Below, one piece after another: positions 14,931 through 64,000 of a stretch of DNA of 64,000 nucleotides (position 1 is its first letter; every line of letters starts with the position of its first letter). A program made the translations under genes and the position numbers. The DNA is from Candidatus Mailhella excrementigallinarum. GTDB taxonomy: Bacteria > Desulfobacterota > Desulfovibrionia > Desulfovibrionales > Desulfovibrionaceae. Under the pieces are notes generated by a model. The model made no database searches. It saw only the letters and a list, made by a program, of their open reading frames with translations, and was not told the DNA's origin. The DNA is taken from the NCBI GenBank assembly GCA_944324075.1, contig CALUUZ010000001.1:372001-436000 (forward strand). Reading direction: 5' to 3'.

Positions 14931-15127
14931 CGAGAATTGTCAAGGGATACATTTTTCAATCCACAGTCGTCCCGTCCGCCGACTGACTCCGCGGCCGACG
15001 GACAGGGGGCGTGCGCATTGCCCCTCCCTGAAGGGAAGAATTGCAGAAAAGGATTTCTTCGGCTTCGCCGTCGCGTCAACCGCTCTTTTCCCCTGAAGGC
15101 GGAGCTTTCAAACCACAAAGGAATTTT
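14931..15127. repeat. Dispersed hairpin repeat H, copy 1 (diverged)
   Basis: About 190 bp that match 32870-33055: TTTTCAATCC, then CCGCCGACTGACT, then CGACGGACAGGGGGCGTGC, a CTTCCCTGAAGGGAAG-like mini-palindrome, AAAAGGATTTC, CGGCTTCGCCGTC and ACAAAGGAATTTT. In this copy the left arm of the big stem has mutated (ACAGTCGTCCCGTCCG), so the stem is imperfect. It lies upstream of livK. Confidence 0.7.
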
Positions 15128-15128
15128 G

Positions 15129-15154
15129 GGGAAACGCTGATTAAAGCGTTTCCC
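15129..15154. repeat. Inverted repeat next to repeat H1
   Basis: Perfect 10-bp arms GGGAAACGCT (15129-15138) and AGCGTTTCCC (15145-15154) with loop GATTAA. A second small stem, GGGAAAA-TTTAC-TTTTCCC, lies near 15181-15199. Confidence 0.6.
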
Positions 15155-32782: not shown

Positions 32783-32869
32783 GCTTTGTCACACTCGGAA
32801 CCTTCTGCCGCCGGAAGTTCCGCCGACAAGCCTCCTGCTCTGTGTTCCGGTCCGCAGATTTCACACCTG

Positions 32870-33055
32870 AAATGTTTCAATCCGCACGCCCCCTGTCCGC
32901 CGACTGACTGAAGCAGCCGACGGACAGGGGGCGTGCGGATTGCCCCTTCCCTGAAGGGAAGGGGGACGGAAAAGGATTTCAGCGGCTTCGCCGTCTTGTC
33001 AACTCCTCTTTTCCCCATAAAGGGGGAGGTCTCAAAACACAAAGGAATTTTTGAT
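32870..33055. repeat. Dispersed hairpin repeat H, copy 2 (perfect 21-bp stem)
   Basis: Left arm 32879-32899 (AATCCGCACGCCCCCTGTCC plus G) and right arm 32921-32941 are exact reverse complements, with a 21-nt loop. A CTTCCCTGAAGGGAAG palindrome (32947-32962), AAAAGGATTTC, CGGCTTCGCCGTC and ACAAAGGAATTTTT follow, in the same order as copy H1 at 14931. Confidence 0.8.
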
Positions 33056-33158
33056 GGACTGCGGACCGGACTGTGAGTGGCCGCAGCGCCCCGGGCCGTC
33101 AGTACAGGGCGCCTTGCACTATGAAGAAGAGATACTGCCCTGCTCCGCTTGATTTCGG

Positions 33159-62139: not shown

Positions 62140-63768
62140 TCAATTTGAGACGCTGCGGCTTTTTCCGAAACTCGTCACGCTCTCCCAGTCCAGCCCGAAC
62201 TTTGCCAGATATTTGCGTAGCCGGTCTGCATCGTTGACATTCCTTTTCCTTTCGCGCGAATGGGCGAAAAGCAGCCGCCCCGCCTCAGAGAGATTGTGCG
62301 CGCGGCGGCAGACGCGAACGACACAGGCAAGCTGCGCGGCGTCAAACAGATCCAGTTTCCGCGCATCCGGACCAAGCACGGAGGAAAGCAGCGCCTCTTC
62401 GCCCTCATGTTCCGCACCGCCCAGCCTGCGCCAGCTTTCCGTCATGCGCTCCCACTCCTCGCGCACAATGTCCGTGGTGATACGGCCGCCCCCGGCCAGA
62501 ACGCTCATGCGCGTAACGGCAGCGGAGAGATCCCGGAAGTTTCCGCGCCATGCGGCGTCACGGCGCACGGCAAGCGACAGGAACAATTCCCGCGCCTCAC
62601 GGTTGAAACGCGCCTGACGGCCTGTTTTCTCCGTTACCCGTTCCAGTTCGTATTCCAGATTCGGCTCTATGTCTTCAGGGCGTTCGGCCAGACCGGGCAG
62701 GCGAAAGGTCCAGAGGTTGATGCGTGCCAGCAGGTCCTCCCGGAATTTCCCGCGCGCGGCCAGCTCCTCCAGCGGTCGGTTGGTTCCGCAAATGAGCTGA
62801 AAGTCACTGCATATTTCCGTATCCGCCCCCAGCGGGTAGAAACGCTTTTCTTCCACGGCGCGCAGCAGCATGGCCTGTTCATCCGCGCCCAGCTCTCCGA
62901 CCTCATCCAGAAAAAGCACCCCGCCGTCAGCCTGTCTCAGCAGACCGGTACGTTCCGCCGCCGCTCCGGTAAACGCGCCTTTTCTGTGCCCGAAGAGCGT
63001 GGACATGGCGGCATCGCCGCGCAAGGTGGCGCAGTTTACCTGCACAAAGTCTCCCTGCACCAGGCGGCGACGGCGACGCAGTTCATAGACCAGACGGGCC
63101 AGGCGCGATTTCCCCGCGCCGGTAGGTCCCATAAGCAGGATAGGCTCCGCCGATTCCGCCCCCACCTTCTCTATGCGGCTGATCATGGTGTTGAATGCCG
63201 TGTTGCGTGTGGCTATGCCGGATTTGAGAAAGTCGGCGTCTCCCTCCGCCTGAGTGCGGAAACGCTCGGCCAGCCGATCATAGCGGGAAAGATCCAGGTC
63301 GATAATCCCAAAGGTTCCCACCGGGTTTTCCTGTCGTCTGCCGGCAGGGTTCGTCTGGAGAATGCGCGCCGGAATGTGACGCGACTCAATGAGCAGGAAA
63401 AGGCAAATCTGCATGACATGCGTGCCGGTAGTGATATGAACCAGATAATCTTCATGCTCGGGATCGAAGGGATAGGAGCGGGCAAAGTCGTAAAAGGCCG
63501 CGTACACCTCTTCAAAATCCCACGGATCTTTCATCTCGAACACATGCCTTCTTACTTTCGTTTCCGGCGACACAAGCTCCAGATCAGCGATCACCGTATC
63601 GGCGATACCCTGATGTTCTCTGCTGTACAGAAGTTCCATACGGTCGATGCGCAGATCCTCCTGCTGTCCGAGAGCCACCGTGGGCCGCCAGCGTTCCCAG
63701 CGCCGGGCCGATACCCCCCGGTCAAGAGTGGAGCCCAGCATACCGATGACAACAGTGGAGTGCGGCAT
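62140..63768 (-). CDS. rtcR: RtcR, sigma-54 activator of RNA repair with CARF domain
   Basis: A 542-residue regulator. The N-terminal CARF-like domain (about 1-185) has VVIGMLGSTLDRG and the ligand-site segment HITTGTHVMQ. The AAA+ domain has Walker A GPTGAGKS (214-221), the sigma-54 loop GAFTGA (264-269) and Walker B VLFLDEVGE. The C-terminal region (about 460-542) includes a helix-turn-helix (RLRKYLAKFGLDWESV). RtcR turns on rtcBA RNA-ligase/cyclase operons when RNA fragments or 2',3'-cyclic ends bind the CARF domain. AGAGGA precedes ATG 63768. It faces away from the sigma-54 promoter at 63883. Confidence 0.95.
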   Translation of the reverse strand: MPHSTVVIGMLGSTLDRGVSARRWERWRPTVALGQQEDLRIDRMELLYSREHQGIADTVIADLELVSPETKVRRHVFEMKDPWDFEEVYAAFYDFARSYPFDPEHEDYLVHITTGTHVMQICLFLLIESRHIPARILQTNPAGRRQENPVGTFGIIDLDLSRYDRLAERFRTQAEGDADFLKSGIATRNTAFNTMISRIEKVGAESAEPILLMGPTGAGKSRLARLVYELRRRRRLVQGDFVQVNCATLRGDAAMSTLFGHRKGAFTGAAAERTGLLRQADGGVLFLDEVGELGADEQAMLLRAVEEKRFYPLGADTEICSDFQLICGTNRPLEELAARGKFREDLLARINLWTFRLPGLAERPEDIEPNLEYELERVTEKTGRQARFNREARELFLSLAVRRDAAWRGNFRDLSAAVTRMSVLAGGGRITTDIVREEWERMTESWRRLGGAEHEGEEALLSSVLGPDARKLDLFDAAQLACVVRVCRRAHNLSEAGRLLFAHSRERKRNVNDADRLRKYLAKFGLDWESVTSFGKSRSVSN

Positions 63769-63882: not shown

Positions 63883-63900
63883 TTGGCACAGTTCATGCTA
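63883..63900 (+). promoter_or_regulatory. Sigma-54 promoter reading out of the window
   Basis: TTGGCACAGTTCATGCTA: the -24 GG (63885-63886) and -12 GC (63897-63898) have the ten-base gap required by sigma-54. It is divergent to rtcR and should be RtcR-dependent, driving an RNA-repair operon to the right. Confidence 0.8.
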
Positions 63901-63911
63901 AAAAGAGCGTG

Positions 63912-63994
63912 ATGCGGATGGAGCACTGTCAATCTCCCCATCCGCATGGCGCGGCGCCCCGTGGGCATATATCATGAGCCGGCTCACGGGGCGC
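63912..63994 (+). other. Two strong hairpins at the start of the sigma-54 transcript
   Basis: Hairpin 1: ATGCGGATGG (63912-63921) with CCATCCGCAT (63938-63947). Hairpin 2: 63954-63966 with 63982-63994, 13 bp including one G-T pair, GCGCCCCGTG paired to CACGGGGCGC at the base. They begin right at the expected transcription start and precede any coding frame visible before the edge. Confidence 0.7.
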
Positions 63995-64000
63995 GGAGGG

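Follow-up and report, generated by a model that had tools for sequence, protein, structure and literature searches.

A conserved hairpin in the rtcA leader of an RtcR-controlled RNA-repair operon of Candidatus Mailhella excrementigallinarum, and a dispersed repeat on its start codon

The rtcA-rtcB operon at the end of the window

The window, which is the whole 64,000-nt stretch of DNA analysed (G000:C1:372001-436000, where G000 is the host genome and C1 the contig), ends in a regulator gene, its divergent promoter and a structured leader. The relevant features are as follows:

62143..63768, minus strand: rtcR, RNA-repair transcriptional activator (CARF and sigma-54 AAA+; NF038308, PF06956, PF00158)
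63883..63899, plus strand: sigma-54 promoter TTGGCACAGTTCATGCT, from the sequence and matching -24/-12 sites in related loci
63907..63952, plus strand: stem I, a 16-nt loop closed by 15 bp if 63948 is C, or by 10+4 bp if it is G as in C1, from folding and the sister species
63948, plus strand: base in the contig overlap that reads G in C1 and C in C5 (C5:18)
63954..63994, plus strand: stem II, 13 bp, with the conserved core GCCCCGYRGGC-loop-GYYYRCGGGGC at 63956-63992, from alignment A1, pair counts and genome scans with model R1
63995..64000, plus strand: first bases of the purine-rich tail that follows stem II (GGAGGG in the host, NRGGG in relatives), continuing beyond the window, from the sequence and the alignment

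The rtcR product matched both PF06956 and PF00158 and scored 784 bits with NF038308, the NCBIfam equivalog for RtcR, against a cut-off of 650. Divergent from this gene, the site at 63883-63899 reads TTGGCAC-N5-ATGCT with a GG-N10-GC spacing, in agreement with the sigma-54 promoter proposed in an earlier, sequence-only reading of this DNA, and the predicted +1, taken 12 nt beyond the C of GC, falls at about U63910. Contig C1 ends 24 nt beyond the window, at 64024 in window terms. Contig C5, which starts within the stem I loop, overlaps it by 95 nt with one mismatch, and the operon continues there with rtcA (C5:286-1353) and then rtcB (C5:1407-2867). With a divergent RtcR equivalog, a sigma-54 -24/-12 site and downstream rtcA and rtcB, the locus belongs to the RtcR-controlled rtc operons, and the end of the window is the genuine start of an rtcA-rtcB RNA-repair operon. 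The rtc genes that the sequence-only reading had placed to the right of position 64000 are thus present; of the other candidates it had named there, neither a Ro60/TROVE gene nor tRNA-like folds were found in this operon. Lacking a Ro60 (rsr) gene, the operon is not of the Ro60/Y RNA variant, and a covariance-model search of the leader and downstream operon matched no Y RNA, tRNA or any other Rfam 15 family.

The closest relative found is Candidatus Mailhella merdavium, whose RtcR is 86% identical, which identifies the host as a Mailhella-like member of Desulfovibrionaceae. The locus shares with the rtcBA operon of E. coli and Salmonella the divergent rtcR and the sigma-54 promoter driving rtcA and rtcB. 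It differs from it, however, in the order rtcA-rtcB, in the divergent type of its RtcB and in having no Rsr/Y RNA; moreover, its leader is structured, whereas the promoter-to-rtcB stretch of E. coli is short. The RtcB encoded at C5:1407-2867 falls below every NCBIfam cut-off among the models matched, is nearest, among single-function models, to the PRK09588/release_rtcB group, and reaches its best solved relatives only at ~1e-31. An RtcR-like paralogue, about 40-45% identical, occurs in many relatives (G000:C40 918-2588, or L003, and L047-L059); in L047-L053, L055 and L059 its divergent neighbour, across a sigma-54 site, is a gene for a fumarate-reductase-like flavoprotein and not an rtc gene.

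Stems I and II of the leader

The 118 nt from 63883 to 64000 fold at -58.9 kcal/mol (z -4.3), and none of 200 dinucleotide shuffles was as stable. The two near-perfect hairpins noticed in the sequence-only reading are both found in this fold, with 10+4 bp in stem I and 13 bp in stem II. The description of stem I as a 10-bp stem holds for C1 and has to be corrected with the base of C5, since C at 63948 makes it a continuous 15-bp helix. Its outer three pairs lie 5' of the predicted +1, with about 12 bp remaining within the predicted transcript. Similarly, the predicted transcript of M. merdavium opens directly with a stem of 12 positions. Of its 12 pairs 11 are kept, 4 of them with both partners changed, and the two leaders share a conserved loop, AGCA(UAC)CUGUCAAUCUCC. 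When the 3' arm was shuffled, 11 pairs were reached in 0.7% of trials, and other registers gave at most 8. In the full-length transcript of M. merdavium, a competing fold is more stable than stem I. Furthermore, the segment 5' of stem II ranges from 11 to about 200 nt and differs between species. Stem I is a local feature, with moderate support that comes from a single sister species; we take it for a lineage-specific 5'-terminal stem, probably a stabiliser of the mRNA.

To follow stem II, RtcR-like loci were gathered from genome collections and their leaders inspected. Stem II is present in ten of the 14 rtcA-first RtcR loci of Desulfovibrionaceae (including a degenerate copy in L037), each time with a G-rich tail; L040 and L044 have a shortened version only, and L034 and L046 no clear one. 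It is also missing from L041, L042 and L043, where rtcB or Ro60 comes first. In the ten rtcA-first leaders, 99.1% of the cells are paired, against 35-46% when the partners are slid by 1-3 columns. Three pairs are changed on both sides, with a covariation score reached by none of 500 shuffles, while 5 of the 11 pairs are invariant and the ten sequences belong to a single family. The loop varies from ~4 to 18 nt with the pairing retained, and the stem lies about 17-54 nt 5' of the native rtcA start codon. The preservation of the stems in homologous regions, on which the sequence-only reading had staked its proposal, is therefore observed for stem II but not for stem I beyond the one sister species.

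A covariance model of stem II, R1, was run over 35 whole genomes and gave 11 hits with E <=3.6e-5 (two of which are the contig overlap of the host genome), all of them rtcR-rtcA leaders; the next-best match had an E of 0.008. Where a genome has a strong match it is the sole one, except for a second rtc locus in G133. Because the model-building sequences were first picked by eye, their own scores are not independent; what is independent is the lack of strong hits elsewhere. Since all strong hits are rtcR-rtcA leaders, stem II is rtc-specific, and the whole-genome scans reject a dispersed palindrome. No Rfam family matched stem II. Taken together, conserved pairing, compensatory change and the tie to rtcA define an rtcA-leader hairpin family. 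On these comparative grounds, stem II is a real conserved element, a new rtcA-leader hairpin that so far appears confined to Desulfovibrionaceae.

Proposed role of the leader and alternative explanations

We consider it probable that the region serves as 5' leader to an rtcA-rtcB mRNA made under the control of RtcR and sigma-54, in which stem II and the G-rich tail act as a cis-acting hairpin belonging to rtcA. Judging from its position alone, stem II could govern how translation of the rtcAB message begins or how stable that message is. It would probably hold the ribosome-entry region open or bind a protein; autoregulation through binding of RtcA or RtcB is one possibility. In the host genome, the dispersed element at the rtcA start codon, described below, would additionally supply its own Shine-Dalgarno and ATG. 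Such leader control of rtcA is apparently undescribed outside enterobacteria: PMC9650030 and PMC7790460 discuss neither a leader nor a hairpin, and nothing relevant was found in the literature on rtc leader motifs and start-codon-seated repeats.

The sequence-only reading had proposed that the operon's first product may be a structured RNA serving the repair system as substrate, sensor or ligand. In a wider form, the leader hairpins would be, or release, a non-coding RNA acting as a repair-system substrate, a tRNA-nuclease decoy or a ligand of RtcR, RtcA or RtcB, in replacement of Y RNA or tRNA-like RNAs. Indeed, in other taxa the RtcR-driven transcript holds such molecules, with a YrlA-type RNA in the RtcR-driven position after Ro60 in L017, L023 and L025, and tRNA-like folds in the leaders of L018 (3093-3164) and L061 (1147-1215). 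The YrlA tRNA-like domain, in turn, has been suggested as a possible competitive inhibitor of a nuclease (PMC7790460). The leaders of L036, L038, L039 and L060 have 99-200 nt before stem II, and the fold z of this 5' segment is -4.8 in L036 and -2.8 in L038 but only -1.3 in L039 and -0.7 in L060. Structured RNA on RtcR-driven transcripts thus stands as a general idea, to which the operon studied here contributes hairpins only. Its leader resembles YrlA (RF02553) and the tRNA-like RNAs of rtc operons as a structured RNA on an RtcR-driven transcript, but matches them neither in sequence nor in structure and forms single hairpins, not a tRNA-like fold; related leaders likewise lack Y RNA, tRNA or Rfam matches, except L061. 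In addition, the 5' segments differ from species to species, and nothing supports a role of the hairpins as substrate, sensor or ligand. Since stem II tracks rtcA rather than the promoter, a cis-acting leader fits better than a free RNA, and a non-coding RNA seems unlikely here. As a separate observation, the long leaders of L039 and L060 look homologous, and those of L036, L038, L039 and L060 belong to no known family.

It is quite improbable that the stems lack any rtc-specific role and are either ordinary GC-rich 5'-UTR structures that do no more than stabilise the mRNA or a dispersed palindrome. The 5' end of the transcript is strongly paired (P 0.89, matched by 3% of shuffles), and GC hairpins are also found after Ro60 genes in other rtc operons, both of which would suit this explanation. 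Across the family, however, 5'-end pairing is not above shuffled controls, as 19 of 60 shuffled sets reach it, and a general 5'-end-protecting stem was rejected for this reason. Stem II itself is conserved in sequence as well as in pairing, and the genome scans described above show that it is not dispersed. The GC hairpins of other proteobacteria are strong and stand directly after the Ro60 gene, before the Y RNAs (L017, L019, L020, L022 and L025); hairpins after Ro60 genes matched the stem II model only weakly (E 0.005-0.01). Finally, bacterial enhancer-binding proteins bind inverted repeats and this palindrome adjoins the RtcR promoter, but hardly any weight can be given to stem II as a DNA operator for RtcR, because half-sites spaced by anything from ~4 to 18 nt, and lying 11 to about 200 nt away from the promoter, are unlike a dimer site, and a loop that varies in length with pairing kept points to RNA rather than DNA.

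A dispersed repeat seated on start codons

The most surprising result concerns the same leader, just outside the window. About 220 nt separate stem II from rtcA in the host, compared with 44 nt in M. merdavium, and the difference is a copy of a repeat that follows stem II and sits precisely on the start codon of rtcA. The native site reads GGAAAGGGACAGCATG-ATG, at ~54 nt from stem II when the repeat is left out of the count. Three copies of the dispersed, ~180-nt repeat, two of them in the window, are located as follows:

C5 117-290: copy in the rtcA leader (L006)
window 14951-15129: repeat copy
window 32872-33057: repeat copy

Contigs C1 and C2 (0.856 Mb, 23% of the genome) carry 54 full or partial copies, and 47 full copies from C1, C2 and other contigs were compared. 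In 38 of these 47, the left edge carries ATG and the right edge GATG. The left ATG opens an 11-codon ORF in 36 copies, usually MFQSTVAPSAD-stop, and the repeat supplies its own AAAGGA and a new ATG. The right ATG opens an ORF of at least 100 aa in twenty copies, which is weak evidence by itself since a random ATG does so in 29% of cases; the argument for the seating therefore relies on gene identities and on a Shine-Dalgarno contrast. Many copies are seated exactly on the start codons of real genes such as nusA, carA and rtcA, and the genes at the right ATG include those for NusA, CarA, FPP synthase, a BilS-like flavodoxin, a MinD-type ATPase and NodT. For CarA and NusA, the alignment to the family model begins at the start of the model, indicating that the right ATG is the native start of the protein. 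A Shine-Dalgarno match of at least 4 nt precedes the left ATG in 14 of the 20 copies with an ORF of at least 100 aa, versus 3 of 17 with a following ORF below 60 aa (background 18%), which suggests that the left ATG is often a native start codon. Since the left ATG also occurs in copies without a gene behind, ATG looks like the target itself; as far as the sequences tell, target duplication and an element ending in ATG both fit. At window 32848-33083, the second of the two window copies is enclosed by the arms of a perfect 12-bp inverted repeat (TCCGGTCCGCAG ... CTGCGGACCGGA), which gives it the look of an insertion into a hairpin loop.

The repeat family is carried by the relatives G016, G019, G021 and G029, and most others are without it. 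Several copies in G016 (L204-L209) are longer, because the apical loop of an internal hairpin contains nested hairpin modules of ~100 nt, one or more per copy. The repeat has no Rfam match, no conventional terminal inverted repeats were seen and its copies contain no ORF. No mobilising enzyme was found for it: none of nine Y1-transposase matches is bounded by repeat ends, and an autonomous partner was found neither among the Y1 loci nor among the longer copies of relatives, whose inserts are the nested hairpin modules. Correia- and REP-type palindromes and IS200/IS605-derived non-autonomous elements are likewise short, multi-copy, hairpin-rich and non-coding, but the copies described here differ from them by an ATG at both edges and by carrying a Shine-Dalgarno, in addition to the unbounded Y1 matches. 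HEARO, or IscB omega-RNA, elements (RF02033) are comparable as dispersed structured elements whose copies reportedly end at ATGA/GTGA. However, the repeat has no RF02033 match above cut-off and no internal ORF. Among five genomes, the host, G016, G019 and G021 gave no HEARO match and G029 a sub-threshold one only, so this identity was rejected; a search for IscB by PF14239 was uninformative, as no control genome matched.

It is quite possible, if short of probable, that besides the new conserved hairpin the rtcA leader holds a member of an undescribed, non-autonomous mobile family that targets ATG, including housekeeping start codons. Insertion would turn the native start into the short uORF, and the Shine-Dalgarno and ATG of the element would restore translation, so that a genome-wide set of genes, RNA repair among them, would share one structured 5' leader. 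For the RNA-repair operons outside enterobacteria, stem II provides a specific, testable cis element. If the repeat is mobile, it shows how selfish DNA can settle at the best-protected site of a gene and still leave that gene alive, and many genes would gain a common translated leader.
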